Shown here: positions 1,914 to 19,902 of the stretch, one piece after another
Numbering within the stretch: position 1 is the stretch's first letter
Layout of the letters: every line of letters begins with the position of its first letter
From: Candidatus Hemicellulosilyticus sp. P3
GTDB lineage: Bacteria > Bacteroidota > Bacteroidia > Bacteroidales > P3
Direction: 5' to 3'
DNA length: 64,000 bases
Assembly (NCBI GenBank): GCA_001543385.1
Contig: LPNH01000002.1
Coordinates: 1 to 64,000 of the forward strand
The notes under the pieces: generated by a model
Databases searched by the model: none
Seen by the model: only the letters and a program-made list of their open reading frames with translations
What the model was told of the DNA's origin: nothing
Position numbers and translations under genes: made by a program

Positions 1914-4900
1914 ATGAAACAGTTATTATGCTTTCGTATTCGACGGGTGGCTGTATCGCTGCTGTTGGCCTTGCCATTGTCCGCAGCCTTCGCCCAACAG
2001 ATCCCCTGCGACATCGTCATCACAGGCAGTTTTGAACCGGCATGTATACTTCCTACCGAAAAACAGGATTACTACGACGAGGACCCCGACAATCTCATCG
2101 CCTGCCAGGGCATGACCGTCACCTACACCGCCAACGTCGGGATGGGCGATCATTCCCCGACCCGTTGGAGTTGGGCGGTGTCCGGCGACGTTTCATCCAA
2201 CAGTAACAACGGAAGCATTACAGTCACATGGGGCCACGGCTCCTCCGGCCATCTGGCTGTGACGGTCTATGGCCCCAACGGCGTCTCCTGCACCAAGAGC
2301 GTCAACGTCCGGCTGGTCGAAAAACCCGTCATCTCAGTTTCGACCGTCCCGGCCTATGTCGAAATGCCCGACGGCACAAAAGTCATCTATGTCTGCCCGG
2401 GCGGGAGCGTCGAGTTCACCGATCACTCCTCCGCCACCAACTCCGACATCGTGGGCTTCTATTGGGAAAGAAAATGGGGAATGTCGTCATCCACACCCAA
2501 TTACAAAATAGAAGACGTGTGGGCCGACGAACAGATCTTCCACTGGGTCTACAACAACTGTGGCTGCTACGACGAGGAAAGCTTCTTCATCCGTATGCTG
2601 GAGGGCGAAAATCTCGAACTGAGCTGCCACGGTACGGTCTGCGAGGGTGACGTCGTCACCTATACAGCCCTCAGTCCCCATTGCAAGCAATTCTCCTGGC
2701 ATGTGTCCGGAGGAACCATATTGAACGGCCAAAACACACCGCAGGTCACCGTGCAGTGGGACAGCCCGCAGGACGGCTACGGCGTCATCGGCATCGACGG
2801 CCAGCTCTGCGGCAGCAACAGTTGCCCCGCCATGCTGAGCAAAAAGATTCCCGTCATCGGCGACAACCTCCCCATCCAAGGGCAGACCATAGTCTGTGTC
2901 GACGAGGCCGTCATCTACAGCGTCCCCCTCTTCGGATCCACCGAGTACCATTGGAGCATCACATCCGCCGCCGATGTCAGCGCCGTGGATGTCAACGGCG
3001 CCAACAAACAGATGTACATCTTCCATCAGCCCGGCACCTACCGTATCACGGTTTCCTACAGGTGCGAATTCCTCGATTGTGGCGAGTTCACCTCCGCACC
3101 GCTGACAGTGGTGGTCAAACCCAAATTGGCCATCACCGGCCAAGATCGCATCTGCATCTCCAATCCCTGCCATCTGGAAACCGCCCCGTATGTCTCCGCC
3201 TCGTGGATAGTCTACGACATAGACAACTCCAACCAAATAGTCTACAACACTTGGGGAAGACAAGAAATATCCACCCGTCTCCCCCGTCCCGGCAGATACC
3301 GTGTCGTTGCCAGCAACCCCAACTTCTGCAACGAAGCCGAATTTCTCCTCACCGTACAGGACAGACCCCCGGCGCCGACCCTTGCCGACCTCGACCCGGG
3401 CAATCCGCATACTGCCTGCACTCACAGCGGAATCAACTTGCAGGCGCACCCGCAAAACCCTGACTACACCATCGTCTGGGAACCCACATGTCCCGATGCC
3501 ACGCCCGGCCGGATTTCGGGCAATGATGTAACAATCAGCTTTGGAGCCAACGTATGCGACATCCATGCCTACACCTTCGACCGGACGTTGAACTGCCTGT
3601 CCGCCCAACCCTACGTGCAACAGATTGTTGAACTGCAGCCAGCCCCAATCACCCTCCCGCGGCATTACGACGTCTGTCCGGGAACCATTATTTCATGGGA
3701 CGACAACGATATCCCTCCGCAGGACGGAGTGCTGTACGAATGGTATATTGGGGGGGCACAGAGTTACGCTTCCGTTCAGGGCAGCCACCTGAAGAACAGC
3801 GTTGTTTTGACGGTCCATGAGCACACCTCCGGAAACTACCCGGTGGACTTCTATGTCTTGCTCAAACGCACCGTGTGCCATGTGTTTTATTACGACACCT
3901 TCCATATCCATGTCAGGAGCCACACCCCCGCCGCAGTCAGCCTCACCGCCAACCCGGAATCAGCTTGCCCTGACGAACCGTTCACCTTTACCGGGTCGGG
4001 CGGCGACCCCGCAAACTACCGGTGGCGTGTCGACAGTATCTTGGCGCCATTTGTCGGCAACCCTTACACCTGCACCTTCACCACGCCCGGAACCCACCGT
4101 GTCACCCTGCTCCACAACGAGATGGACGAGTGTACAAACCTCCATTACTACGACAGTGCAACCGTCCTGGTGACAGTCTCACCCGCCCCGGTGATCAATG
4201 GCTTAATCTACGATGCCGCCGCCCAGACCGTCAGCGTGGACATGGCCGCGGGCCGCTATACATATCAATGGTACTACAACGACATCCTTCAAGTCGGTCA
4301 GACAAATCCCTCCATGCGCCTTGTCGGCTACGGCACCTACCGTTGCGAAGTGGAAAATCTTTGGGGGTGCACCGCTTCCGAGTCTAAATATATCGGGCCG
4401 AACACACCATGTTACGAATGCAATATGATTGAAGACATGACCGGCACCTACGACGGCTGCGCCGCAGTGCTGACCCTGACGTCGCCCATAGCGGCACACA
4501 ATGTTTATTGGAAATGTTCGGGGAACAGCGACCAGAGGACAATAATCGTCAATCCCAGCGACAGACACCACGCGACAGTCCAATTCAAAGATGTCGGCAT
4601 CTATCACATCCAGTCCTACACCACCGGCTCCCATTGCGAGGTGAGCAACTTCACAAAAGCGGTGACCTTCATACCCGATTTCACCTTCGAGAAGCAGTGC
4701 GACAAGATTGTCATCCACAACCGTTCCAAGAGCCTGTCTGGCATGGAGCGCATCTATTTCACTGTTGCGGGCCATGCCCCGTGCATGTTCGACTATTCGG
4801 TCAGGACCTACGAATACCCCGTTACCTCCAACGGCACCTACACATTTTGTCTACAGGTCTTGGCCGACGGCACGCTCTACGAATGCACCTACCCTCCGGT

Positions 4901-7241
4901 CGTCTTCACCACCGTCAACCCGGCCACGCTCTCCATCACATCCGCCAATACACTCAACCCCCATTGGACTTGCGAAAACACGCCCATAGAACTGACGGCG
5001 TCCTTGAACCCCTATGCCCCGATTTCTTCCACCACATGGACGTTCAGTGACGGAACATTTTTTACAATGCAGGGAAATAAAATACATCATACATTTACAT
5101 CAAGTCTTTATTTTCATTCCGTCACCGCATCTGTCACAGATGCCAACGGTTGCCCCGTCACCTCACAAGTCCCGTTTACTATAAGTTCTCACCCAAATGA
5201 ATTGAAAGAATATCTACTTCATGCGTTGGGTTCAGAGGTGTGCCCGAATACAGCCCGGTACATTCAATTCCAATATAATGGGAATGTGCTGACATCATGT
5301 AATTTCTATTGGAACGGCGCTGCAACACCGTCGACCAACCCCACCTATGCGACCTACACCACCGGCCTATACCCGGCTGTTGCCGTGAACAACCGCTACT
5401 GTCACGTGCAAGACAACATCAACGTGAGATTCAAAAACAAACCCACCGCCATCATTGTCACCGACAAACAGCGATACTGCATGGGTGATCGGATAATGCT
5501 GTATGGCGCCACCGGTCCGGACTCCAATCAATACACCTACCAGTGGACCGTCACCAATGCCAACAACTTCACCCGGCATTTCTACACCGCATCAGCCTCA
5601 TTCTATCCCCCCATGGCCGATGACTACCATATCCAGCTCTGCATCACCGACAACGCTTCCGGATGCTCCGATTGTGCAAGCGGGGTGACCGTCACGGTCC
5701 ATCCCACACCTGCCGCCCCCTCCATCGCTTATGGCCAGCGCCTGTGCCTCGACGACCCGCCTGTTGAGTTGGTCGGCAGCAGTCCCGCGACCAATAGGTT
5801 GCATTGGAGCAATGGCCATTCAGGCCCTACGGCTTACTACTTCACCCCGGGCGTGGCCACCGCATGGTACTACGACCCCGCCAGCGGCTGCAAGTCCGAT
5901 GCGGCAAGCATCACCATCGACGCACAACCTGATTTCGACGCCCTGCTGACCGGCTGTTACGAAAAGTGCCCTGATTTTTTCCTTAGGCCTCGCAGACTGC
6001 CCGTTCGGGGACTGACAACCTGGAACCAAAAGATCGATTGTGTGTGGAATTATAATGGCCGTGATATTTACGCAGATGGCGGCATCTACACACACCGTCC
6101 GTTACTATTGCCCTTACCGGGGTTCGGCGACTACCGCCTTGACGTGGATTACAACCACGGCCATTGTCATGTCGCCTCCCCGTTGCTCACCATCACAGAA
6201 ATACAGGAATTTTGCGACTGCGAAGACATTGAAATTACAATAGAGAAAATCCACGATGTTGGTGATTGCTATAACTTCTACAGTATCAACGTGACGGTGT
6301 GCAGCCATTCTGATTTCACATATTATTTCCATGAGTTGCAATGTCTCGCCGATCCGGAGTATGTACAAATTGTTAATACAGACTTTCAGCCCACCCCTGT
6401 AGATCCTGACAATTGTTTCTCCTTCAAGTTAGAAGTGAAGCTGTATCAACCCCTGCCGTCACAATCCATCACATTCCGTCTCTATGGCGACTGCAACGCC
6501 GATTTCAGCATCGACCTTTTGCCCGAATACATAGAATGCAAAACCGAAATAGCCCCTTTTTTATACGACCTTCGGGCCGATATGTCAACCAGTGCGGCCG
6601 TCTATTTCAAATTCCAATTGGAGGTATTTCCCTCGCAGAACATCATCGCCTGCTGGTCCGATCCACCCATGGTCGTCAACTCCTGGTATGGCGGTTCCGA
6701 ACACTTGGACGGGCTTGCCATGATAGAATACGCCAAGATTACACAGCTTGTGGCAGAGGACGGCTTCATCTGCTTTTACGCCCTCGCCTGCATGGACAAA
6801 GAGTTCTGCTGGCTAAAATCCTGTATCCCCGCTGAAAAGTTCTATCAGCGACTGCAGGACCTCGGCATTACGCCCAAACAGGCCGCAAAAACCTTTGGCG
6901 ACAGCGGTAAGGAAAGCGACACCGGATTGCCCCTCGGCCCCGACCCCGGCAGAGACCTTCACCTCGTACCCAATCCCGCCACCGGTGATGTCACCATTGT
7001 CTGCGGCGCCCGTATCCCGGATGCCACAACCGAAGCGCTTGCCCCCCGGGCAAAAGGCAGCGCCGACAAGGTGGTCGAGGTGTTGGTGATGGACATGAGC
7101 GGCCGCCCGATGGCAACATTCATCAACACCGACCGCTTCAACGTCTCCGACCTCCCCGCCGGATTCTACATCGTCCGTGTCAGAACCCGATCTGTCGACG
7201 CCGCGGAAAAAGTGACATACATGAAACTCATGAAAAAATAA
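1914..7241 (+). CDS. Giant (1775 aa) secreted surface protein with PKD/Ig-like repeats and T9SS type A sorting domain
   Basis: Signal peptide MKQLLCFRIRRVAVSLLLALPLSAAFAQ, repeated Ig/PKD-like modules, C-terminal 'LHLVPNPATGDVTIVCG...LPAGFYIVRVRTRS...YMKLMKK'. Confidence 0.85.
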   Translation: MKQLLCFRIRRVAVSLLLALPLSAAFAQQIPCDIVITGSFEPACILPTEKQDYYDEDPDNLIACQGMTVTYTANVGMGDHSPTRWSWAVSGDVSSNSNNGSITVTWGHGSSGHLAVTVYGPNGVSCTKSVNVRLVEKPVISVSTVPAYVEMPDGTKVIYVCPGGSVEFTDHSSATNSDIVGFYWERKWGMSSSTPNYKIEDVWADEQIFHWVYNNCGCYDEESFFIRMLEGENLELSCHGTVCEGDVVTYTALSPHCKQFSWHVSGGTILNGQNTPQVTVQWDSPQDGYGVIGIDGQLCGSNSCPAMLSKKIPVIGDNLPIQGQTIVCVDEAVIYSVPLFGSTEYHWSITSAADVSAVDVNGANKQMYIFHQPGTYRITVSYRCEFLDCGEFTSAPLTVVVKPKLAITGQDRICISNPCHLETAPYVSASWIVYDIDNSNQIVYNTWGRQEISTRLPRPGRYRVVASNPNFCNEAEFLLTVQDRPPAPTLADLDPGNPHTACTHSGINLQAHPQNPDYTIVWEPTCPDATPGRISGNDVTISFGANVCDIHAYTFDRTLNCLSAQPYVQQIVELQPAPITLPRHYDVCPGTIISWDDNDIPPQDGVLYEWYIGGAQSYASVQGSHLKNSVVLTVHEHTSGNYPVDFYVLLKRTVCHVFYYDTFHIHVRSHTPAAVSLTANPESACPDEPFTFTGSGGDPANYRWRVDSILAPFVGNPYTCTFTTPGTHRVTLLHNEMDECTNLHYYDSATVLVTVSPAPVINGLIYDAAAQTVSVDMAAGRYTYQWYYNDILQVGQTNPSMRLVGYGTYRCEVENLWGCTASESKYIGPNTPCYECNMIEDMTGTYDGCAAVLTLTSPIAAHNVYWKCSGNSDQRTIIVNPSDRHHATVQFKDVGIYHIQSYTTGSHCEVSNFTKAVTFIPDFTFEKQCDKIVIHNRSKSLSGMERIYFTVAGHAPCMFDYSVRTYEYPVTSNGTYTFCLQVLADGTLYECTYPPVVFTTVNPATLSITSANTLNPHWTCENTPIELTASLNPYAPISSTTWTFSDGTFFTMQGNKIHHTFTSSLYFHSVTASVTDANGCPVTSQVPFTISSHPNELKEYLLHALGSEVCPNTARYIQFQYNGNVLTSCNFYWNGAATPSTNPTYATYTTGLYPAVAVNNRYCHVQDNINVRFKNKPTAIIVTDKQRYCMGDRIMLYGATGPDSNQYTYQWTVTNANNFTRHFYTASASFYPPMADDYHIQLCITDNASGCSDCASGVTVTVHPTPAAPSIAYGQRLCLDDPPVELVGSSPATNRLHWSNGHSGPTAYYFTPGVATAWYYDPASGCKSDAASITIDAQPDFDALLTGCYEKCPDFFLRPRRLPVRGLTTWNQKIDCVWNYNGRDIYADGGIYTHRPLLLPLPGFGDYRLDVDYNHGHCHVASPLLTITEIQEFCDCEDIEITIEKIHDVGDCYNFYSINVTVCSHSDFTYYFHELQCLADPEYVQIVNTDFQPTPVDPDNCFSFKLEVKLYQPLPSQSITFRLYGDCNADFSIDLLPEYIECKTEIAPFLYDLRADMSTSAAVYFKFQLEVFPSQNIIACWSDPPMVVNSWYGGSEHLDGLAMIEYAKITQLVAEDGFICFYALACMDKEFCWLKSCIPAEKFYQRLQDLGITPKQAAKTFGDSGKESDTGLPLGPDPGRDLHLVPNPATGDVTIVCGARIPDATTEALAPRAKGSADKVVEVLVMDMSGRPMATFINTDRFNVSDLPAGFYIVRVRTRSVDAAEKVTYMKLMKK

Positions 7242-7290: not shown

Positions 7291-9630
7291 ATGAACAAAT
7301 CATTCAATTTCATCAGTCGTTTCCTCGCCACGCCAAAGTTTGAGCAAGCTCTGCTTGGGTCGTCTGGCTTAACGAAAACGTTCAATTTCATTAGTCGTTT
7401 TCTCGCCATGCCAAAGTTCAAGCAAGCTTGGCTCTGGTCATTTGGCTTATCGAAAACGTTCGCTTCTTCGAAACAGTCGTTTTCTCGCCTCGGGATAAGA
7501 GCAAGCGCTTCTCCTCTCGGCTTAACGAAAACAATCTCAGTTGCACACTGCAGTGTTCTCTGCAAGCACATACTGATCTCGGCCTTGGTCCTTGTGACCC
7601 TCTCCGTCCGCGCCCAGCGTTTCGACTGGGTGAAAACCTATACAGGCTTCGACCGGTGTGATCGTTTTGACAACTGGATCTCCAGCTCGGTGACCGATTC
7701 CGAAGGCAACCTCTACATCCTCGGGCAGTGCGCACCCGACGCGCTGCTCGACGGCGAACCGCTTCTGCCGTACCGCATTCCGAACAGAAGGGGCATCCTG
7801 ATCGCAAAGTTCGCCCCGGACGGCAGCGTGGTGTGGCGCAAGCCCATTACGACACCGGGCTCCAACGTGGGACACACCATCAAACTGATCGGAGACACCT
7901 CCATCGTCTGCATGGCCGGGGTCATGTTGGAAGAAACGTTCTATTGGCTGGATTCCGTTTATTCCGACGCAGGGAGCCTCATGGCGACCGATTCGATAAG
8001 CGGAAATTTCGTATCGGCATTCATAACGCTGAATCTGGACGGAGAACTGCAGGAACAGCATTTCTTGCAAGTGGTGTATTTTGACAGTGACGGCAACCGG
8101 ATCACCCTGGACAGACAGACAGGACGCGTCCACGACTCTTCATGGGTGACGCCCGCCGCTCTCACGGCTTGCACTTTTGACATCGACGGCAACGGCAACA
8201 TTTTCGTTGTTCGACAAACGGTGGACAAAGAACTCGTTAAAGTGCCTGACGACACCGGTGGTCTTGAGGATACAATATTATCCATCGAGGACGGCACGTT
8301 GTCCGGGATTCAGATATGGGTGGACGGCCATGCAAGATTCAACATATTTCCCCCAAACCGCCCGAAAAGGTGGAATGTGATGATGCTGAAATTCTCACCG
8401 CATTTCCACGATCTGCTTGCGCATCGGTATCTTTTCCAGGACGAAACAGGCGATAATGACTTGGAATCGATCTACTCCATGGTTATGGACCCGAACCATA
8501 ACATGCATCTGATCGCGACCGAAGTGAGGCCAGGGTCGATGTCGGATAGTGCAACGGCAACCATCCCCAACCTGCCGGTTGCCTATTGTCGGCGGAACGT
8601 AATCAACAGTTTGGTCGTGAAATGCGACAGCCTGCTCAACCCGCTCTTCGTCAAGCAAGTGGCGATGGAAAGTTGTTACGACGATTTCAACACCGGAAAG
8701 TTTGAATTTTATTCTATGGCACGGGGGGACGACGGACAGGACCTGTTCATATCAGGGCATGTGACCATCCCTGTGGAAGTCTGCAACAATCCCGCCGCTT
8801 TTGTCGACAACGACACCGTCGACATCGTCGACAAATTGTTTTTCATCCGGATCGACGCGGAGACCGGGCGGCTGAAATCATACGGAACAGCGAGGTCCAA
8901 CGGACTCGCAACAGGAATTTGTCTTCCACATATATACTGGCAACACCAAATGTGCGTAAAGCACAACCGTGTCTTTGTCCCGTGCAATTACGCGGGGGAT
9001 TTCCTCTTCGGGGCCGATTCGGCATGTCATGCCATTGACCGTGTCTGGAACAACGCCATCTGCATCTGGGACACCTCGGGCAACGCGATCGGCCTCATCG
9101 ACATGCCGACAAATGTCTCAATTCATAAAAGTAACCAATCCTGCTACCTCATCGCGCTGCACGACAGCATCCTGTATATCTCGGGCCAGCTGCAAGCCTC
9201 GTCGGTCCAGCTGGGCGACACCACCATATACTCCGAGGCAAATCACAGGACAAAAGCCTACGTGGCAAAATATGTCGACACCGCCTTCATGACCCCGTAT
9301 GTCAGCACGGCAGGAGCGCCGGGCGACGTGCACGTCACACTGACGGACCAGGCGGGGGCGTTCGTGGCCTACCCCAACCCCTTCCGGCAACGTATCAACA
9401 TCCGGGTGGAGCACACATCGCTCAAAACCGAGGACGGCGTCGCCACCGCCATCCTCACCGACCTCACCGGCCGCCGCGAGACAGTGCGTCTCGACCCTGC
9501 AGGCCCCGGCCGCCACAGCCTCGACCTGACCGGCCGGCCCCAGTCCGTTTACCTCCTCACCCTCACCACCTCCGACGGGCGCCAACACACCGTCCGCCTG
9601 CTGAAACAATCCGACATATACGGGAAATGA
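7291..9630 (+). CDS. T9SS type A sorting-domain surface protein; N-terminal ~88 codons are repeat-derived, true start uncertain
   Basis: Signal-peptide-like segment 'CKHILISALVLVTLSVRAQ' starts only at about residue 91. C-terminus 'FVAYPNPFRQRINIRVEH...SVYLLTLTTSDGRQHTVRLLKQ' is T9SS type A. Confidence 0.75.
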   Translation: MNKSFNFISRFLATPKFEQALLGSSGLTKTFNFISRFLAMPKFKQAWLWSFGLSKTFASSKQSFSRLGIRASASPLGLTKTISVAHCSVLCKHILISALVLVTLSVRAQRFDWVKTYTGFDRCDRFDNWISSSVTDSEGNLYILGQCAPDALLDGEPLLPYRIPNRRGILIAKFAPDGSVVWRKPITTPGSNVGHTIKLIGDTSIVCMAGVMLEETFYWLDSVYSDAGSLMATDSISGNFVSAFITLNLDGELQEQHFLQVVYFDSDGNRITLDRQTGRVHDSSWVTPAALTACTFDIDGNGNIFVVRQTVDKELVKVPDDTGGLEDTILSIEDGTLSGIQIWVDGHARFNIFPPNRPKRWNVMMLKFSPHFHDLLAHRYLFQDETGDNDLESIYSMVMDPNHNMHLIATEVRPGSMSDSATATIPNLPVAYCRRNVINSLVVKCDSLLNPLFVKQVAMESCYDDFNTGKFEFYSMARGDDGQDLFISGHVTIPVEVCNNPAAFVDNDTVDIVDKLFFIRIDAETGRLKSYGTARSNGLATGICLPHIYWQHQMCVKHNRVFVPCNYAGDFLFGADSACHAIDRVWNNAICIWDTSGNAIGLIDMPTNVSIHKSNQSCYLIALHDSILYISGQLQASSVQLGDTTIYSEANHRTKAYVAKYVDTAFMTPYVSTAGAPGDVHVTLTDQAGAFVAYPNPFRQRINIRVEHTSLKTEDGVATAILTDLTGRRETVRLDPAGPGRHSLDLTGRPQSVYLLTLTTSDGRQHTVRLLKQSDIYGK
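7297..7532 (+). repeat. Dispersed repeat, three tandem copies (third degenerate)
   Basis: Landmark AGTCG at 7315, 7393, 7475 (78- and 82-bp spacing); TTCAATTTCAT(C/T)AGTCGTTT(T/C)CTCGCC...GGCTTA(A/T)CGAAAACG. Confidence 0.9.
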
Positions 9631-9640
9631 AAATGACACC

Positions 9641-9866
9641 CACCCCCAAAGAACCCATCCGTGTCCATCCAAGTAATCCGTGGATCAAAAGAACCCATCC
9701 ATAAAGAATCATCCGCATCCATCCAAGTAATCCGTGGATCAAAGAACCCACCCCCAAAGAACCCATCCATGTCCATCCGTGTAATCCGTGGATCAAAAGA
9801 ACCCATCCCCAAAGAATCATCCGTGTCCATCCGTGTAATCCGTGGATCAAAGAACCCATCCATAAA
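9641..9866. repeat. 54-bp tandem repeat, ~4 copies
   Basis: AATCCGTGGATCAAA recurs at 9675, 9729, 9783, 9837, exactly 54 bp apart; unit contains CATCCGTGTCCATCCGTGTAATCCGTGGATCAAA. Confidence 0.95.
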
Positions 9867-10040: not shown

Positions 10041-10289
10041 ATGCAAAACGGTGCCGAAACGCTGTCTCCGTACACACCTCCAGCCATCGAGGTGCAGACA
10101 TTCCATGTCGAGGAAGGCTTCGCCGACAGCATCACCGAATCGTGGGAAAACTCATTCTCTGTCGAGGAGAGTGGAACCACCGGCCAGGTCGACCTCTTTC
10201 TATGGACCGACCAGACCAAAACCACACCCACCAACGAAAACGAAGCCTTCGACCTGCAGTGGGGTAACAACGACTTTTGGGGAAACTAA
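10041..10289 (+). CDS. Small Bacteroidales protein (82 aa), W/N/F-rich C-terminus
   Basis: MQNGAETLSPYTPPAIEVQTFHVEEGFADSITESWENSFSVEESG...; shares the Y-x-x-P-x-[IL] N-terminal and W-x-N-x-F motifs with 10510 and 19004. Confidence 0.55.
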   Translation: MQNGAETLSPYTPPAIEVQTFHVEEGFADSITESWENSFSVEESGTTGQVDLFLWTDQTKTTPTNENEAFDLQWGNNDFWGN

Positions 10290-10509: not shown

Positions 10510-10722
10510 ATGAAACACCGCGGCGGCTACGAGTCCCCGCAGCTGCGCACCGTCCCCGTCAGCTGCGGGGGCATGCTGTGCCTCTCGGCGGGCGAGAGTT
10601 ACATGCAAGAAGAAACAGAGGTGCTGGACTTTTACCATGAAGGCACCGACACCGAAGACCCCGGCAACCGCAACGACCAGTTCAGCGACTGGTCCAACGG
10701 AGGCGAGAACAGTTTCTTCTAA
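10510..10722 (+). CDS. Small protein (70 aa) of the same group, immediately upstream of a GLUG lipoprotein
   Basis: ATG at 10510 inside track ORF 10441..10722: MKHRGGYESPQLRTVPVSCGGMLCLSAGESY...DWSNGGENSFF. Confidence 0.6.
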   Translation: MKHRGGYESPQLRTVPVSCGGMLCLSAGESYMQEETEVLDFYHEGTDTEDPGNRNDQFSDWSNGGENSFF

Positions 10723-10795
10723 ACAAACCGGCGGGAAGCCCGGGCAGCCCCGGACATTCTCGACACACAATCCCAAACACACAATCCCAAACATC

Positions 10796-13414
10796 ATGAA
10801 CCAGAAACTACACAGCCATAGCATGCGCACCCTGACGGTGCTGTGCGCCGCCGCGCTGGCGGCCCTCGCCGTCGCGTGCCAGAAAGACGACAACACCGTC
10901 GACCTCGCCGCCTACGTCGCCGACGAATACGGCGGCAACGCCAAAGTCTCCATCGACGAAAACCGCTACGCCTGCTGGGAGACGGGCGACGCAGTCAACG
11001 TCAACGGCACCAACTACACCGCCGCGGTAGAGGGCGATTTAAAACATGCCACCATCGCCGGCGTTACCGCCAGCGACGCCGGCTACACCGCCGTCTACCC
11101 TGCCTCCTGCGCCGCCAGCGTGGTGGCCGGCAGCAGCACGGTGACCCTCACGCTGCCCGACGTGCAGACATGGGACGCCGACCATATCTTCAGTCCCATG
11201 GTGGCCACCTACAGCAACAACCAGCTCAACTTCCACAACCCCTGCAACCTGCTGGCGGTAACCGTGACCAACAACACCGGATCCGCCTTGCAGATTCATC
11301 AGATTGTCATGACGGCGACCACCAGCATCCTCTGCGGCACCGCCACGGTGGCGGACTGCAACACCGAGACCCCCTACGTCTCCGCCATCGCTGACGGAAG
11401 CAAAGACCTGACGTTAGACTGCGGCAACACCGAGATTGCCGCCGGCGGGAACTACACCTTCTATGTGTCGGTGCCCGGCGTCTCCAACGAACACTTCCGT
11501 TTCCGCGTCCTGGCCGAAAACGGAGACACCAAATACACCTTCGATGTCAACAGCAACGCCAGCGGCATCACACTGACCCAGAACCAGCTGGTCCCGGTCC
11601 CCGTCGAACTCGACGGCACGACCTCAAATTCCACAAAAACCTTCTGGGGGCAAGGCACTGAGGACGACCCGTTTCTGATCACCTGTTACGACGACCTGGA
11701 GGCTTTCAGGACATTGGTCAAAGCAGGAACAAACACGACCTATGTTAAGAACAATAACGTTTACTATCGCCAGACCTGCGATATCGATGCCTCTTCCACA
11801 ACTTGGAACTGCTCCGGGGGAAGATTTTTCGGCCATTATGATGGTGGCAACCATTATATCAAATTGAGTTTGTCGCTGTCTAATGGCGGTTTATTCGGTT
11901 ACTTATATGGTGCAACCATTGAAAACCTTACTCTCAATGGTGCTTCTGTCTCGGGCAGTTCGGCCACCACGTTTGGTACATTCTGTAACAGTGCGCTTTA
12001 TGATGCGTCAGCAAATGAATATACAACATTGCGGAATTGTACAAATAACATCTCCGTCACATCAACTTCTAGTAGTACTACTTCTTCATATCTCGGCGGG
12101 ATAGTCGGTCTTGTGAATGCCTCAACCAAAGTACAAATGATTAATTGCACCAATAATGGAACAATAACAGGAAATAAAAATTCCACAGCTACTACATATT
12201 ATATCGGTGGATTGGCGGGCTGGTATAAAGGACGCATTAGCGACTGCACCAACAATTCCAATGTAAGCGGAGCCAATAATGTCGGCGGATTCGTCGGACG
12301 CTATAATGGCTGGGTCTCCTTCAACGGAACATGCACAAATCATGGAGATATATCCGGTAAACAATATGTTGGCGGATTTATCGGTTGTGCCACACCTGAG
12401 TTCACTATTACAGGCACTATGGTCAACAAGGGCGATATTACAGGTACAATGTATGTCGGAGGGGTTGTTGGTCAAGTGGCAAGTGGTGCCTCGAATCCCA
12501 TCAATATTTCAGGAGATATAGTCAATGAAGGTTCTGTGACCGGTACAGGTGGTTATGTCGGAGGTATTGTTGGACAGACAAACAGCGCATCAGCGTGTAA
12601 TATTTCCGGTGCAACCAATAAGGGCGCCATCCAAGGAACCTATGATGTGGGGGGGATTGTTGGCTATACTTTAGGTGTTGGAACCGTGAGCAATTGTTAC
12701 AATTCTGGTACGGTAAGAGCAACTGGTACAGGTACGGATATGGGATTGGGTGGTATTGTTGGAATCGTTTATTCAGGCACCAGAACCGTTGAGAATTGCC
12801 GCAATACAGGTAATGTAACGGCGGATGCAGGCAATAACACATTATATGCCGGTGGTATAATTGGTTTGGTAAGAACAGGTACCACAACGGTTAATAACTG
12901 CGCTGTTAATGGCGTTACAATCACAGTGAACAAGTGTTTCGGTGCAGCCGGAATCGTAGGTGCAAATAAGGGTGGAGTAAATATTTATAACTCCTATTTT
13001 AATGGCACAATCACAACCATCGGCGCAAGCACATACGCGGTTGGAGGTATTACAACCAGTAACAATACTGGCACAATTAATATCACCAATTGCTATGTAA
13101 ATATAGATTTGGGTACCGACAATGCCGGCCTCAACTATGCCACTGGATTTGGTTCCATGGCTTTCCGCTATACTGGTAAAGGTACTGTCACTGTGACAAA
13201 TAGCTATGCAAACATTTCCACAACAAAGGGCAGTTATGCTCATTCTGCCACCACCACGTTCAACATATCTACCGGAGAACTGGCAGCGGCGCAGACGGTA
13301 AATGGCGAGAGTTGCACCACCCTCTACAGTGCTTTGCACAACTGGTATCTGGCCCATTCAACCTACAGTGACTGGAAGAACGAAACGATCCCGACCCTCA
13401 GCTGGGAAGATTGA
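10796..13414 (+). CDS. GLUG-repeat-like surface lipoprotein
   Basis: Lipobox signal MRTLTVLCAAALAALAVAC|QKDDN from ATG 10796; many repeats of the type 'GGIVGLVN...NCTNNGTITG'; C-terminus IPTLSWED. Confidence 0.8.
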   Translation: MNQKLHSHSMRTLTVLCAAALAALAVACQKDDNTVDLAAYVADEYGGNAKVSIDENRYACWETGDAVNVNGTNYTAAVEGDLKHATIAGVTASDAGYTAVYPASCAASVVAGSSTVTLTLPDVQTWDADHIFSPMVATYSNNQLNFHNPCNLLAVTVTNNTGSALQIHQIVMTATTSILCGTATVADCNTETPYVSAIADGSKDLTLDCGNTEIAAGGNYTFYVSVPGVSNEHFRFRVLAENGDTKYTFDVNSNASGITLTQNQLVPVPVELDGTTSNSTKTFWGQGTEDDPFLITCYDDLEAFRTLVKAGTNTTYVKNNNVYYRQTCDIDASSTTWNCSGGRFFGHYDGGNHYIKLSLSLSNGGLFGYLYGATIENLTLNGASVSGSSATTFGTFCNSALYDASANEYTTLRNCTNNISVTSTSSSTTSSYLGGIVGLVNASTKVQMINCTNNGTITGNKNSTATTYYIGGLAGWYKGRISDCTNNSNVSGANNVGGFVGRYNGWVSFNGTCTNHGDISGKQYVGGFIGCATPEFTITGTMVNKGDITGTMYVGGVVGQVASGASNPINISGDIVNEGSVTGTGGYVGGIVGQTNSASACNISGATNKGAIQGTYDVGGIVGYTLGVGTVSNCYNSGTVRATGTGTDMGLGGIVGIVYSGTRTVENCRNTGNVTADAGNNTLYAGGIIGLVRTGTTTVNNCAVNGVTITVNKCFGAAGIVGANKGGVNIYNSYFNGTITTIGASTYAVGGITTSNNTGTINITNCYVNIDLGTDNAGLNYATGFGSMAFRYTGKGTVTVTNSYANISTTKGSYAHSATTTFNISTGELAAAQTVNGESCTTLYSALHNWYLAHSTYSDWKNETIPTLSWED

Positions 13415-13456
13415 TAATAACATCCACCTGTCGGACCTATGCCCGGCAGTACACCT

Positions 13457-13489
13457 GCAGAAGCCCGGAGCGTTGCTCCGGGCTTCTGC
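13457..13489 (+). terminator. Strong hairpin downstream of GLUG lipoprotein
   Basis: GCAGAAGCCCGGAGC-GTT-GCTCCGGGCTTCTGC: perfect 15-bp stem, 3-nt loop. Confidence 0.75.
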
Positions 13490-13582
13490 TTTATAAACAA
13501 AACCGCCGCCGCTTTTCAGTTTTTTCTTCACAGCCTTGATTTTTTCTTTTGCTTCGTTTTCTTTTGTATCAAGACAAAAGAA

Positions 13583-13636
13583 GTCGGGCTTGCTTGAACT
13601 TTGGCATGGCGAGAAAACGACTGATGAAATTAAACG
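13583..13636 (-). repeat. Dispersed repeat, copy 3 (partial)
   Basis: GGCTTGCTTGAACTTTGGCATGGCGAGAAAACGACTGATGAAATTAAACG. Confidence 0.85.
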
Positions 13637-13726
13637 TCATCACGGCGCAGGGGACAGATGTTCCCTGCGCCGTGATGTTTGTGTCGGAGGAGAAAGCGGG
13701 GCGGCCCTCCCCTCCCCCGCCGCCGA

Positions 13727-14380
13727 TCAGACGGCTACGACGGAGCCTGCCATGACGGAGTTGGAGATGCGGCTTTTGTCTTCGCTGCGCACGGCGACGT
13801 AGAGGTAGAGGGTGTCGCCGGCCCAAGCCGAGGGGTAGCTGAGCACCGCAGCTTCGTCGGCACGGACGGCGGAGACAAGGTCGTAGGTGGAGGACTGACG
13901 GGCCGGATTGTAGAGGCAGAAGAGCATGCGGTCGTTGTCGACGACGCCGGTGTCGGAGCCGGCGTTGTTGGTCCAGCTGATGTTGACGCTGTGGCCTGAG
14001 GCGGCGGCAGCGACAGCGGGCGAATCGACGCCGGGCAGGTTGCCCGAGGAGAGGATTACACGGCTGTAGTCGAGGCTGACGCCGGTGCCCGAGCCGGTGA
14101 CGGCTTGCGCCAGGTTGAGGCGTGTGGCTACGTTGGCGGCGGTGATGGCTTCGCTGTCGGCCAGGGCACGGAGGCCTTCGTTGACGAAGGTCTGCACGCC
14201 GCTCACGAAACGGCTGACGAGGGAGAGTCGCGCCCGGGCGGCCTGCTGTGCGGCGGTGCGGGGGTTGTGGACGTGTTGGGCGATGGCACGGATGACGGAA
14301 CGTCCTTTCCAGCTGCTGCCGATGACGGTGCCTACTTTGCCGTTGAATCCGCCGAGGATTCCTTGTTTGATGATTGCCAT
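13727..14380 (-). CDS. DUF6266 family protein
   Basis: MAIIKQGILGGFNGKVGTVIGSSWKGRSVIRAIAQHVHNPRTAAQQAARARLSLVS...; N-terminus typical of DUF6266. Confidence 0.75.
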   Translation of the reverse strand: MAIIKQGILGGFNGKVGTVIGSSWKGRSVIRAIAQHVHNPRTAAQQAARARLSLVSRFVSGVQTFVNEGLRALADSEAITAANVATRLNLAQAVTGSGTGVSLDYSRVILSSGNLPGVDSPAVAAAASGHSVNISWTNNAGSDTGVVDNDRMLFCLYNPARQSSTYDLVSAVRADEAAVLSYPSAWAGDTLYLYVAVRSEDKSRISNSVMAGSVVAV

Positions 14381-14716
14381 AGTGTTTGTGTTTGATGGTT
14401 GATAGATGTGGTATATTTGTCTGCATCGGGCTGCCGCGACTGCGCATGCTGTTTCGGCGTCGACGCTGCCGGCTTGCTGTCGAGCGGAGAGGCGGGGCTA
14501 CCGTCCGGCGACCGATGCGGATGCAAAGATGCAGCTGCCGGGAGCCGTCGGACGCCCGCCAATGGCCGCTGTCTGACGGCTGCCGAGCGGCGGGCGCGGC
14601 AGCCACGCGGCGGTAGCGCGGCGGCACGGCGGGCGCACGATGCGCCGGCGGATTGTCGGCGGATTGCGGCGAAATGTTGCCGGAGGGCTTGAAAACGACG
14701 GTTATTTTACTTATTT

Positions 14717-15553
14717 TTGCATTTTGGTTGGCATCGGCGCCAACGGAAGGGAGTTTTTTTGTCTACGCAGGGTGACGACATTTCCGGCACGACGCTTCGC
14801 GACTACCGCCGCGAAGGGCGTCGCATCGTCGCCGACGGCGAGGTGTTCCCGCTCAGCCTTGAGGGGCTGCGGCGCGAGATGGTGCGCCGGCACTACGACG
14901 TGCGGAGCCAGCTGCTCTACCTGCACCGCGCCGAGCTGGCGCTGTCGGTGGCCGACACGGAGCTGATGGCCGAGGTGGGCGGCTGGATTGAGGAGCTGCA
15001 GCAGCGCTTTGAGCAGCTGACGCTGCGCCGACAGCGCACCCTTGAGTTGTTGGGGCGCGACGGCGCTGCCGGATTGCCGACGGGTGCCGACGGCGGGACG
15101 GCGGAGGCGGACGGATTGTCTGCGACGCCGCAGGGCGGGCCGCTGCGATCGTTTTTCTGGAAAGCGGGCGAGGGATGTGTGGAGGGGGTGCGCGACTTGC
15201 AGCGCAACTTATGGGGCGCCAAGCTGCTGGCGCATGGCGACGACACGGGGCGCGACACGGCGCTGCTTGTCGCCCTCGGGGTGGGGCGCTACGCCGGCCT
15301 GCCGCCAAAGCGTATGACGTGGCTGGGCAAGACCAACCAGCTGCACTGTTTTGTCAATATGATGGTCGACGGCGGCTATGTCGACTGCCGCGGCGGCTCG
15401 AAGTGGATGACCGCCGCCGACCTCTTTGCCCCGGCCGACCCGTCGCGACGCTACACGGCCAAGCGGATCTCTGACGCCCGCGCCATCAATGCCGACGACG
15501 AGCGGCAGGTGCGCCGCTGCCTCCCCGCCACAATGGGAGGTGCCGTTGTGTGA
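14717..15553 (+). CDS. Hypothetical protein, start codon uncertain (track uses TTG)
   Basis: Open 278-codon frame; no recognised domain; no good ATG near the 5' end. Confidence 0.4.
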   Translation: MHFGWHRRQRKGVFLSTQGDDISGTTLRDYRREGRRIVADGEVFPLSLEGLRREMVRRHYDVRSQLLYLHRAELALSVADTELMAEVGGWIEELQQRFEQLTLRRQRTLELLGRDGAAGLPTGADGGTAEADGLSATPQGGPLRSFFWKAGEGCVEGVRDLQRNLWGAKLLAHGDDTGRDTALLVALGVGRYAGLPPKRMTWLGKTNQLHCFVNMMVDGGYVDCRGGSKWMTAADLFAPADPSRRYTAKRISDARAINADDERQVRRCLPATMGGAVV

Positions 15554-15605
15554 GGCTGTCGGGCTGCGGCGACGTCCCGGACGGCTGTCTGGAGTTATAT
15601 AAATG

Positions 15606-15633
15606 ACGGCACCCGCCAGATGGCGGGTGCCGT
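15606..15633. terminator. Hairpin between convergent genes
   Basis: ACGGCACCCGCC-AGAT-GGCGGGTGCCGT, perfect 12-bp stem. Confidence 0.65.
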
Positions 15634-15682
15634 GGTCTTGTCGCCGGTCCGGCCGGCGTCGATGACGGGGGTGGGGGAAAAA

Positions 15683-18600
15683 CTATTCGTCCTCCCAGCT
15701 GAGGCGCGGAAGCTCTGTGTGGCAGGAGGAGCTCCAGGTGCTGTAGGCCGTGTTGCTGTTCTGCCAGTTGTTGAGGGCGTCCCGCAGGCGTGTCCTGGAG
15801 GAGGTCACGTATTCATTGTCGGTGTTGCGGGTGATGGTGTGGTTGGCGGCGGCGTAGTTGGTGCCTTTGGCCGTCTGGTCGATGCTGTAGCAGTCGGTGC
15901 AGTGGGCTGTGTAGTTTGAATGGTTGTAGCTGCCCGACATGTTGCCGTAGTTGGTGAGTTTGCCTACAATGGAGACGGTGCCCGAGAAGTAGCAGTTTTT
16001 CAGTGTGGGCCGGCTGTTCACGGCGCTTGTGATGCCGCCTCCGGTGGAGGTGCTGGAGTTGTAGGTGAGGTTGCCCTGGTTGTAGCTGTTGGTGATGGTC
16101 GACGTGTTGGCGTGGCACATGGCGGCAAGGCCTGCCGCGGCCACGCCGCTGCCCCTGAGGTGGCCGGTGTTGCCACAGTCGCTCATCGTGACGGCGGCGT
16201 TGGTGTAGCCCGAGATGCCGCCGACGTACAACGACGAACCGCCGCCGCTGACAGCGGTGACGTCGCCGCTGTTGAGGCAGCGGACAAAGGAGAGGGCACC
16301 GCCGGCGCTGGCCAGTATGCCGGCGACACCGGACTGATTGATTGCGTCGGTCGACATGGAGCTGCCGCCCCCAGCCATGACGGCGCCGCTGTTGCGGCAG
16401 TAGGTGAAGGTGGAGGCCGCCTCGGCCCGCCCGACGAGGCCGCCGACATGGTGGTCGCCCCGTATGTTTCCTCTGTTGGTGCAACGGTTCAACCCGGATG
16501 TGTGGTGTATGTGGCCGGCGATGCCGCCCACATAGACCGATCCTGTCACACGGCCTGTGTTCACATGGTGACCCGAACCGTCGGATATCGTCATCTTTTG
16601 CGCCCAGCCGACAAATCCGCCTGTGTAGTGGGTTCCGTCGACGGCGGCCTCGTTGGTGATAACAGCCCTGTTGCCGACGGTGAAATGGCAGTCGGATTTT
16701 CTGGCGTCGCCGACGACACCGACGATGCCGCCGACGCAACGGTAGGCGGTGCCGCTGTGGGTGACGGCACCTCTGACCGCGACGGCGCCGTTGACGGCAA
16801 GGTAGTTGCAATAGCCGGCCAGCCCCCCTGTGACGCTGGCTAATGACTGGACGGATGTGTAATGTGTCGTACAGGTGGTGCTGCCGGAGTATTTCACGGT
16901 GGCGTCCACCTCCACGGTGGCGTCTTCATCCACGGTCAGGGTGGAGGCGATATGACCTACGACACCCCCGACATAGCACATTCCCGTGACGTCGCCCTGC
17001 TGTCTGACGGCACCTTGCAGCGTCAGCGTGCCGGTGGCCGAACCGACCATGCCGCCGATATTGTGGCGGCCGCGGCCAAAGGTGCGGGCGGCGACCGCAG
17101 CGGTGTTGGCACATCCGGCTATGACCGTTGCATTCTCTGTCCGGCCGATCAGTCCGCCAATATTCTGGAATCCGCTCACCGTGCCATTGTTTGTGCAATT
17201 CTGCACCGTCGCGGTTCCGTCTGCAGAGTGTATGTGTCCCACAATGCCGCCGCAGCCCTTACCTTGATGAGTGTGATGGTATGATGTCTGCCCGACGGCC
17301 GCATGGTTGGCACAGCCGTCGACCGTCAGGGTGCCGGCTGAGTGGTGTCCGACGATGCCGCCGGCCCGCATTCCGGCGGTGCTGACGGTGCCGTGGTTGG
17401 AACAGTTGCTGAGGGTGACGGTGCCACCGTCGGCCTGCACTTGGCCGCAGACACCCCCGACCCCTTTGTCCGACATCTCCGCGCCGCTGTTGCGGATGGC
17501 AGCCTTGTTGTCGCAGCGGTCGATGGTGGCGTTGCCGGCAACGAGTCCCACCACGCCGCCTGTGGACACATGATTTGTTGTCGAGACACTTCCCGTCGAT
17601 GTGAGGCAGCTGATGGACGCCCCCTCCCCGACCACACCGAAGATTCCGATCGGATGGTGCGGCTTGGACGAGGTCACACCCAGTTTCACCGAATGACCGT
17701 CGCCGTTGTAGTGCGCCCTGAAGGGACGGGCAGTGGAGCCGACGGCATGGGTTGGAGCCTGCCCCCAGGCCCGCTGCCTGGAGATGTCGAGGTCCGCCGT
17801 CTGGCGGTAATATACGGTGTTGGCGTTGTAGACGGCGTCGTCGTAGCTGTCGAGGTGGGTGTGGGTGACCAGGTTGCGCAGGGTGTAGAGGTCGGCCTCG
17901 TTTTCGATGAGGAAGGGGCTTTTCTCGGTGCCTTGGCCCCAGAAATGGGCGTTGACGGCGGTCTTGCCCGCTTCGTCGAGGCGGGCGGGGACGGAGCCCA
18001 TCTGGTTTCGGGCTATCCAGACGCCCCCGTCGGCGCTGCCGCTGACGAAGGTGTATCTGCCGCCGGCACCGGTGGCCTTGACGAGGACGGTGAGGTTGGA
18101 TTTGGCGCTTTCGGCGATGGGCAGCACGGGGAGGTAGAGGGTGACACTGCCGCCCGAGGAGGCGAGGGTCACGTCGGCGTCGCTGAGCGAGAGGGTGACG
18201 GTGCGGCTGGTGCCGCTGACAGCGACAATGTCGGTGCCGGCGGCGCTGACGCTGACGGCAGCGGTGCCGGCCAAGGGGGCGTTGTCGCTCTCGACTTCGA
18301 CGGAGTGGAGGGTGACGGCCTCGGCGTATGTGTTGGCGACGACGACTTTGAGCAGGGCGCCGACGTTGTAGAATTTGAGTATGTCGCCAGTGCTGTAGGC
18401 AGCCATGGGGCTGGCGATGCGCTGGGCCGCGCCGTCGGCGTCGCTATAGATGGCGACACGCTCGTAGGCCTGCACAGCGGGAAAGTCGATGGCGAGCGTG
18501 CCCGGCCCGGTGACGGTGGCGGCGGAAGCAGGATAACCGGCGGTGTAGCTGTCGCCTTGGGCGACGCCCCGGATGGTGGCGCTGACTCCGTCGGCGGAGG

Positions 18601-18844
18601 TGACGGCGAGGCTGTAGTCGGCGGCGGCGCCACCACTGTAGATTTTCACCGCGTCGCCCTGCTGCCAGCAGGCGCGGAGGCCGTCGATGTAGACTTTGGC
18701 GCCGCTGTCGGGACGGTCGGCCATGACGGCGGTGAGCTCGACGGTGTTGTTGTCTTTTTGGCACGCAACGGCGAAGGCTGCCAGCGCGGCGCCGCACAGC
18801 ACCGTCAGCGTGCGGCGCACGGGGATGTTGAAATTCTGTTTCAT
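15683..18844 (-). CDS. GLUG-repeat-like surface lipoprotein (1053 aa), paralogue of 10796..13414
   Basis: MKQNFNIPVRRTLTVLCGAALAAFAVAC|QKDNNTVEL..., near-identical signal/lipobox to the 10796 product; GG(I/V)VG...C.N.G repeats; C-terminus LPRLSWEDE. Confidence 0.8.
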   Translation of the reverse strand: MKQNFNIPVRRTLTVLCGAALAAFAVACQKDNNTVELTAVMADRPDSGAKVYIDGLRACWQQGDAVKIYSGGAAADYSLAVTSADGVSATIRGVAQGDSYTAGYPASAATVTGPGTLAIDFPAVQAYERVAIYSDADGAAQRIASPMAAYSTGDILKFYNVGALLKVVVANTYAEAVTLHSVEVESDNAPLAGTAAVSVSAAGTDIVAVSGTSRTVTLSLSDADVTLASSGGSVTLYLPVLPIAESAKSNLTVLVKATGAGGRYTFVSGSADGGVWIARNQMGSVPARLDEAGKTAVNAHFWGQGTEKSPFLIENEADLYTLRNLVTHTHLDSYDDAVYNANTVYYRQTADLDISRQRAWGQAPTHAVGSTARPFRAHYNGDGHSVKLGVTSSKPHHPIGIFGVVGEGASISCLTSTGSVSTTNHVSTGGVVGLVAGNATIDRCDNKAAIRNSGAEMSDKGVGGVCGQVQADGGTVTLSNCSNHGTVSTAGMRAGGIVGHHSAGTLTVDGCANHAAVGQTSYHHTHQGKGCGGIVGHIHSADGTATVQNCTNNGTVSGFQNIGGLIGRTENATVIAGCANTAAVAARTFGRGRHNIGGMVGSATGTLTLQGAVRQQGDVTGMCYVGGVVGHIASTLTVDEDATVEVDATVKYSGSTTCTTHYTSVQSLASVTGGLAGYCNYLAVNGAVAVRGAVTHSGTAYRCVGGIVGVVGDARKSDCHFTVGNRAVITNEAAVDGTHYTGGFVGWAQKMTISDGSGHHVNTGRVTGSVYVGGIAGHIHHTSGLNRCTNRGNIRGDHHVGGLVGRAEAASTFTYCRNSGAVMAGGGSSMSTDAINQSGVAGILASAGGALSFVRCLNSGDVTAVSGGGSSLYVGGISGYTNAAVTMSDCGNTGHLRGSGVAAAGLAAMCHANTSTITNSYNQGNLTYNSSTSTGGGITSAVNSRPTLKNCYFSGTVSIVGKLTNYGNMSGSYNHSNYTAHCTDCYSIDQTAKGTNYAAANHTITRNTDNEYVTSSRTRLRDALNNWQNSNTAYSTWSSSCHTELPRLSWEDE

Positions 18845-18845
18845 G

Positions 18846-18927
18846 GTTTAATTTCATTGAGGCGTTTTCTCGCCATGCCCAAGGCCAAGCAAGCTTGGCT
18901 CCGGTCGTCTGGCTTATGGAAAAACGT
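18846..18927 (+). repeat. Dispersed repeat, copy 4
   Basis: TTTAATTTCATTGAGGCGTTTTCTCGCCATGCCCAAGGCCAAGCAAGCTTGGCTCCGGTCGTCTGGCTTATGGAAAAACG. Confidence 0.88.
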
Positions 18928-19003
18928 CGGTTTTTGTCTTTTTTATTTGTTTTTGATGATGGCTGTGGTTGTGCCGGGGCGGCAACGCACCCGGCGCGGA
19001 ACG

Positions 19004-19252
19004 TCAGATGAAGCTGTTGTCCCATCCCTGTGACTCGGGGGCTTCGGTGTATTCGGCGACGGTGTTGCCGGGTTCGCCCCGCTGGCTTTCATAATGGAAT
19101 ATACGCCGGCTTTCGTCACCCTCCATGCCCAGCATGGAGCCCACAAGCATGGCGGCGCCACAGCGCACAGGGATGACTTTCAGGTGCGGCGCCGCATAAG
19201 ACTCGCAGGTCGCAGGCCGACCTTGTGTTGATGTTTCGGTTTGTTGTTTCAT
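19004..19252 (-). CDS. Small protein (82 aa), same group as 10510, immediately upstream of a GLUG lipoprotein
   Basis: MKQQTETSTQGRPATCESYAAPHLKVIPVRCGAAMLVG...ESQGWDNSFI; aligns with 10510 product at Y-x-x-P-x-L-x-x-x-P-V and W-x-N..SF. Confidence 0.6.
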   Translation of the reverse strand: MKQQTETSTQGRPATCESYAAPHLKVIPVRCGAAMLVGSMLGMEGDESRRIFHYESQRGEPGNTVAEYTEAPESQGWDNSFI

Positions 19253-19297
19253 GTTGTTGAATTATTGGTTTGTAGGTTTATATGATTGGAATACTTC

Positions 19298-19346
19298 TTT
19301 CAATTTCATTAGACGTTTTCTTGCCATGCCAACGTTCAAGCAAGTT
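19298..19346 (+). repeat. Dispersed repeat, copy 5 (partial)
   Basis: TTTCAATTTCATTAGACGTTTTCTTGCCATGCCAACGTTCAAGCAAGTT. Confidence 0.88.
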
Positions 19347-19359
19347 TGCCGCCGGACGC

Positions 19360-19902
19360 TCATCCCCCACTGTCGCGTAGCTGCCTCAACTTCATTTTCA
19401 GCCGGTTGATCCTGCGGTTGACGGCCACTTCGCTTATCTCGAAGATGTCGGCGATGTTGCTCTGCGGGACGCGGTCGATGTAGAGGGTCAGCAGTGTTTT
19501 CTCGTCTTTGTCGAGCCGGTCGATCAGCCCGTAGAGGACTTCAACCATCTCGTCGCCGCCGTTGTCGGCCAGGTCGCAGCTCAAGGCGTCGTTGAGCGCG
19601 GTGAGCCGCGGCATGCGCCGCCGGGAACGGTATTGCATATACACCGTATTCAGGGCGATGCGGTAGACCCAGGTGTTCGGACAACAAAGCCCGCGATACT
19701 GCGGATAGCTGCACCACAGGTTGCAGACAATCTCCTGATAGAGGTCGCTGACGCTGTCGGGATGGCGGTCGGTGTGCATCAGGCATAGTTTCAGTATCGT
19801 GCCCCGACACTGGTCGAGCATGTCCAAAAATCCGTGGTGCAGCTGCTTTGTCATACCGTTACAATGCGGCCTCGACGGATGAAGTCGCATAGTTCTATCC
19901 AT
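19360..19902 (-). CDS. RNA polymerase sigma-70 family (ECF-type) sigma factor
   Basis: 'DLYQEIVCNLWCSYPQYRGLCCPNTWVYRIALNTVYMQYRSRRR' (region 2-like) and 'LDKDEKTLLTLYIDRVPQSNIADIFEISEVAVNRRINRLKMKLRQL' (region 4). Confidence 0.85.
   Translation of the reverse strand: MDRTMRLHPSRPHCNGMTKQLHHGFLDMLDQCRGTILKLCLMHTDRHPDSVSDLYQEIVCNLWCSYPQYRGLCCPNTWVYRIALNTVYMQYRSRRRMPRLTALNDALSCDLADNGGDEMVEVLYGLIDRLDKDEKTLLTLYIDRVPQSNIADIFEISEVAVNRRINRLKMKLRQLRDSGG

Follow-up and report, generated by a model that had tools for sequence, protein, structure and literature searches.

Small YxxP proteins paired with fimbrillin-like lipoproteins in Bacteroidales: probable precursors of a dispersed system resembling that of the linear polyphosphorylated peptides

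The linear polyphosphorylated peptides (LPPs), described by Popov et al. in 2026 and called restricted to Bacillota, derive from precursors carrying the motif YxxPxVLxHQxIxFETxxS, in which core Ser3 (read here as the last Ser of the motif) is phosphorylated and cleavage takes place after the preceding Thr (PMC13381572). Among ribosomally synthesized and post-translationally modified peptides (RiPPs), lasso-type recognition elements (RREs) bind leaders through the motif YxxPxL; in LppB, residues N33 and D70 hold the leader Pro and Tyr (PMC13381572). The present analysis concerns the first 64,000 nucleotides of contig LPNH01000002.1 of Candidatus Hemicellulosilyticus sp. P3 (Bacteroidales), hereafter the window, in which a gene for a small protein twice precedes a gene for a lipoprotein with GLUG repeats (Table 1). 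The small proteins are probably precursor peptides of a dispersed, LPP-like RiPP system, whose maturation enzymes would be encoded as a set at another place in the genome; no report of such a system in Bacteroidales was found in the open-access literature.

The small proteins of the window belong to a family present in 106 of the 119 genomes of this rumen Bacteroidales genus, with a maximum of 23 copies per genome; a contig scan yielded 13 loci, and the named relatives among them are metagenome-assembled genomes of Bacteroidales or Bacteroidetes, several of them from rumen or reticulum. The consensus of 95 nonredundant copies is Y-x-x-P-x-[LVI]-x-V-V-x-F-x-x-E-x-G-[FY]-x-x-S, followed by a variable acidic tail; YxxP is conserved in all 95 copies, E14 in 93, G16 in 92, [FY]17 in 88 and S20 in 90, the last figure to be compared with a Ser content of 12% in the tail. 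Counted from just after [FY], the tail has a median length of 40 residues, is rich in Ser, Gly, Asn, Asp and Glu, contains very little Lys (0.8%) or Cys (0.1%), and in 83 of the 95 copies shows a Trp among its last ten residues. The strict motif occurs in 87 of the 95 copies, which were themselves collected with a profile of the same family, and in none of 3714 short control open reading frames (ORFs). As to whether these frames are translated, a question raised by an earlier note on this DNA, they evolve as proteins under purifying selection (median dN/dS 0.28, 29 pairs). The conserved YxxP N-terminus, the Ser shortly after it and the variable C-terminus are those of LPP precursors; indeed, the 95 copies fit the published description (35-200 aa, YxxPx[V/L]...xxS N-terminus, variable C-terminus) with variant spacing and cleavage residues, the two focal proteins being divergent. 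Searches of the small proteins against Pfam and NCBIfam gave nothing beyond chance apart from sub-threshold matches to lasso_cyano (best E 0.037), which extend over 12 residues and cover the YxxPxL stretch only, and which thereby provided the lead towards a RiPP.

The genomic context of the family is equally regular. A same-strand lipoprotein gene lies directly beside 73 of the 95 small genes, a lower bound given that the lipobox pattern missed some adjoining lipoproteins, vs 19 of 301 control genes (6%); 52 small genes stand directly before and 26 directly after such a gene (73 distinct), with a gap that is usually 3-50 bp on either side. The part common to the partner lipoproteins is an N-terminal domain behind the lipobox, whose Cys is present in the alignments. 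An AlphaFold2 model of this domain from lipoprotein copy 1 (pLDDT 84) found as its best structural match in Foldseek the fimbrial protein BF1861 of B. fragilis (PDB 3sy6, E 2.6e-7), so that the partners resemble in this fold the fimbrillin-like or putative cell adhesion lipoproteins of Bacteroidales; they differ from the BF1861 type in their varied C-terminal parts (GLUG, LRR, beta-helix and others) and in being paired with a precursor gene. The earlier note had taken the small gene and a GLUG lipoprotein as a unit: the pairing with a lipoprotein holds, whereas GLUG was rejected as the conserved partner, being carried by only 4 of the 74 lipoproteins scanned, a set that includes one unpaired lipoprotein of the window's own genome. 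The distribution which that note had regarded as speaking against its proposal, small proteins mostly away from GLUG lipoproteins, is the one observed, yet they lie mostly beside fimbrillin-like ones.

A candidate maturation apparatus is encoded in the same genomes. A PqqD-like RRE domain was detected in 109 of the 119 genomes (E <= 1e-3), usually as a discrete short frame, the matches of G021 and G078 sitting in longer frames; at 18 of the 20 PqqD loci examined in the genus it is accompanied by an HprK/ScmC-like kinase and an S26 peptidase. The kinase has an invariant P-loop and a structure model with the PEPCK/HPrK fold, while the peptidase (Peptidase_S26, E 1e-8) keeps Ser, His and Asp in the aligned members. 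In a PDB search the RRE profile matched the lasso RRE TfuB1 (6jx3, E 7e-8), and the known RiPP RREs among the matches were lasso ones only (6jx3, 5v1u, 9x90); its invariant residues N35 and D73 are spaced about as N33 and D70 of LppB. The discrete RRE, the adjacent HprK-like kinase and the Ser-His-Asp signal peptidase I of archaeal type reported for LPPs are each found in the genus. The differences from LPPs concern the host, Bacteroidales rather than Bacillota, the peptidase, often fused to VanZ in the genus operons, and the precursors, which are many, lie mostly away from the enzymes and stand next to fimbrillin-like lipoproteins; in the window's own genome, which holds one of the 18 loci, the kinase and the peptidase are divergent and fused to each other, overlapping the RRE gene. 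Sets of RRE, kinase and S26 peptidase also occur in other Bacteroidales families, with order-wide variants of the small protein (YxxPxxxVxxVxxExGFAxS; L253, L247, L250, L254, L258). A second, divergent RRE type was observed in G023 (L269:2823-3098), with no recognised kinase or peptidase and near a lipoprotein-like ORF.

The YxxPxL motif, the lasso_cyano matches and the lasso-type RRE could also suggest that the small proteins are lasso peptide precursors, the more so as phosphorylated lasso peptides of the paeninodin type share with the present system the RRE, a [Y/W]xxPxL leader and an HprK-like kinase acting on Ser. This is extremely improbable: it was rejected because the transglutaminase-like B2 protease of lasso systems (PF13471) is missing from all 31 genomes searched, the peptidase here being of S26 type, and the lasso_cyano matches do not reach past the YxxPxL stretch.

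Precursor and enzymes are physically linked in three genomes. In G138, from another family, a precursor, the kinase, the S26 peptidase, the RRE, an NTP_transf_5 protein (PF14907, E 4e-33) and an ATP-binding cassette (ABC) exporter (E 8e-32) form one operon on one strand; judged by sequence, this gene set corresponds to the LPP core set, to which a nucleoside triphosphate (NTP) transferase and an MsbA-like exporter belong. In G231, from another family as well, one strand carries a precursor, a fimbrillin-like lipoprotein, an ABC exporter, the S26 peptidase, the RRE and the kinase; the lipoprotein has the same N-terminal domain (hhalign probability 94.5, E 8e-8), and the precursor-lipoprotein pair is therefore placed inside the enzyme cluster. 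In G007, which belongs to the window's genus, a family member lies beside the RRE and the S26 peptidase, with a kinase-like frame on the opposite strand.

On these grounds the following scheme may be proposed. The first ~17 residues counted from the motif Tyr (YxxPxL...E-x-G-[FY]) would act as a leader. The PqqD-type RRE, a discrete protein with its gene at another locus, would bind this leader and present the precursor to two enzymes, the HprK-like kinase and the Ser-His-Asp signal peptidase of archaeal or SipW type. Phosphorylation by the kinase would fall on the conserved Ser past the leader, and cleavage by the peptidase close to the E-x-G-[FY]/x-x-S boundary; the product would be a core of about 25-65 residues, acidic and poor in Lys, with a Trp near its end. 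The precursor gene is normally placed for co-transcription with the gene of the fimbrillin-like surface lipoprotein, the likely site of display or sensing of the exported peptide. Among the roles suggested by the earlier note for the small protein, that of a peptide in signalling or maturation is on the right track, whereas a regulator forming a unit with a sigma factor and a GLUG lipoprotein does not. The broadest version of the scheme is put forward tentatively, with chances a little short of even: an LPP-like system spanning phyla, whose single enzyme operon would act in trans on many precursors, each of them paired with its own fimbrillin-like lipoprotein for display or sensing of the finished phosphopeptide, and which would amount to a dispersed repertoire of modified peptides and surface proteins. 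An LPP-like system in rumen Bacteroidales, with up to 23 precursors paired with fimbria-like surface lipoproteins, would extend the LPP family from Bacillota across phyla and show a layout of one maturase and many substrates; it would offer a clue, surface display or sensing, to the role of LPPs, unknown as described in 2026, and would put a name to a class of small Bacteroidales proteins that is common yet unannotated.

Several observations weigh against an LPP-like pathway. Neither an exporter nor an NTP transferase was recognised beside the enzyme operon in the window's genus. The motif reads E-x-G-[FY]-x-x-S instead of F-E-T-x-x-S, with the Ser one residue further and different cleavage residues. 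In four genomes that have the enzymes no small gene was detected; conversely, no RRE was detected in three genomes with small genes, all of them incomplete (72-80%). Small genes and RRE are jointly absent from 7 of the 119 genomes (Fisher 3e-6); because these genomes fall together in a single basal group of the gyrB phylogeny, the co-absence was downgraded and carries no independent weight. The four genomes with enzymes alone, together with the tightness of the lipoprotein pairing, would be compatible with the small proteins being cytoplasmic partners of the adjacent fimbrillin-like lipoprotein unrelated to RiPPs (assembly chaperone, adaptor or translational regulator), YxxPxL being a chance likeness and the RRE operon serving other substrates. 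A further point in its favour, the covariation of the variable tail with the adjoining lipoprotein (rho 0.17, p 0.0005; rho 0.10, p 0.08 for the whole small protein), is weak, and this co-divergence is confounded by cassette duplication. Such a partner role is rather unlikely, since it leaves unexplained both the conserved E-x-G-[FY]-x-x-S region and the precursor genes inside the RRE/kinase/peptidase clusters of G138, G231 and G007.

The remaining points against the LPP-like reading concern the window itself. The duplicated cassette described in the earlier note is present, and its likenesses are real: the two focal small proteins share 29% identity (single-comparison E 9e-9), the two lipoproteins are full-length paralogs (30% identity, E 1e-78) whose only Pfam match is Glug, and the DNA around the signal peptides is 83% identical across 133 nt (10826-10958 vs 18682-18814), closer between the copies than the remainder of the genes. 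Directly upstream of copy 1 stands a third small gene, overlooked at the time, whose product belongs to the family more clearly than do the two focal proteins. When the family model was scored with own-genome sequences excluded (jackknife), this third paralog obtained E 5e-9, and an orphan small gene of canonical type in the same genome (contig C36, C36:131058) E 1.4e-9; the focal proteins reached only E 0.023 (focal 1) and 0.1 (focal 2), the best background ORF giving E 4.8. Both focal proteins keep YxxPxL and neither has E-x-G-[FY]; the Ser at motif position 20 is kept in focal protein 1 and displaced by one residue in focal protein 2. Their assignment to the family is based on position and on the canonical C36 member as a bridge, to which they are 32% (E 9e-6) and 35% (E 6e-8) identical, respectively. 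An LPP-like pathway is considered likely for the family as a whole and, owing to the weak jackknife scores and the missing E-x-G-[FY], active membership of the focal pair in it only somewhat favoured. The same features, and the divergent, fused kinase-peptidase of this genome, would fit window pairs that are decayed or repurposed relics, outside a pathway in which the rest of the family takes part; this is the less probable outcome, though one of some weight, as the frames of both focal proteins are intact and retain YxxPxL, each gene stands immediately ahead of a lipoprotein gene, as is usual in the family, and a canonical small gene stands in tandem with copy 1. Elsewhere in this genome another small gene adjoins a lipoprotein gene (C1, L085), and a third full-length GLUG lipoprotein (C1, L019:8871-11756) is encoded directly after radA, with no adjoining small gene.

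Table 1. Positions of the small genes, their neighbours and the interspersed repeat in the window.
Feature	Position	Strand	Description
Third small paralog	10041..10289	+	82 aa; canonical family member; leader-like region YTPPAIEVQTFHVEEGFADS, tail end FWGN
Focal small protein 1	10510..10722	+	70 aa; divergent member of the small-protein family
Lipoprotein, copy 1	10796..13414	+	872 aa; lipobox, fimbrillin-like N-terminal domain, GLUG repeats (Glug E 3e-10)
Lipoprotein, copy 2	15683..18844	-	1053 aa; same N-terminal domain as copy 1, GLUG repeats (Glug E 2e-9)
Focal small protein 2	19004..19252	-	82 aa; most divergent family member
ECF sigma factor	19360..19902	-	180 aa; upstream of focal small protein 2; TIGR02937 E 6e-17
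Interspersed repeat copies	1855-1881, 7308-7334, 7386-7412, 13603-13629, 18853-18879, 19304-19330	both	

The minus-strand cassette is preceded by a genuine gene for a sigma70 factor of the extracytoplasmic function (ECF) type, and, as the earlier note had remarked, no anti-sigma gene adjoins it in the window. The earlier note had suggested that the sigma factor controls the set and that the small protein could be a regulator; in such a regulatory unit with the GLUG lipoprotein, for which this gene order speaks, the small protein would stand in for the anti-sigma factor. A scan of the loci of the 95 small genes led to the rejection of sigma-factor control: a co-directional adjoining ECF gene occurs at one of them, the window copy itself, while at one further locus an ECF gene of opposite orientation lies no more than 400 bp away. 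Since the small family is not tied to GLUG either, the regulatory unit is highly improbable; the ECF sigma factor is judged to be a local neighbour and no conserved part of the system.

An interspersed repeat, TTTCAT(T/C)AGNCGTTTTCTCGCCATGCC, flanks both cassettes in six copies; in the minus copy it sits between the small gene, the lipoprotein gene and the sigma gene. Just before the third small gene, at positions 9638-9853, a direct repeat of 108 nt occurs three times with 54-nt spacing, and further upstream two large proteins (1914-7241 and 7291-9630) carry C-terminal sorting domains of type A of the type IX secretion system (T9SS).

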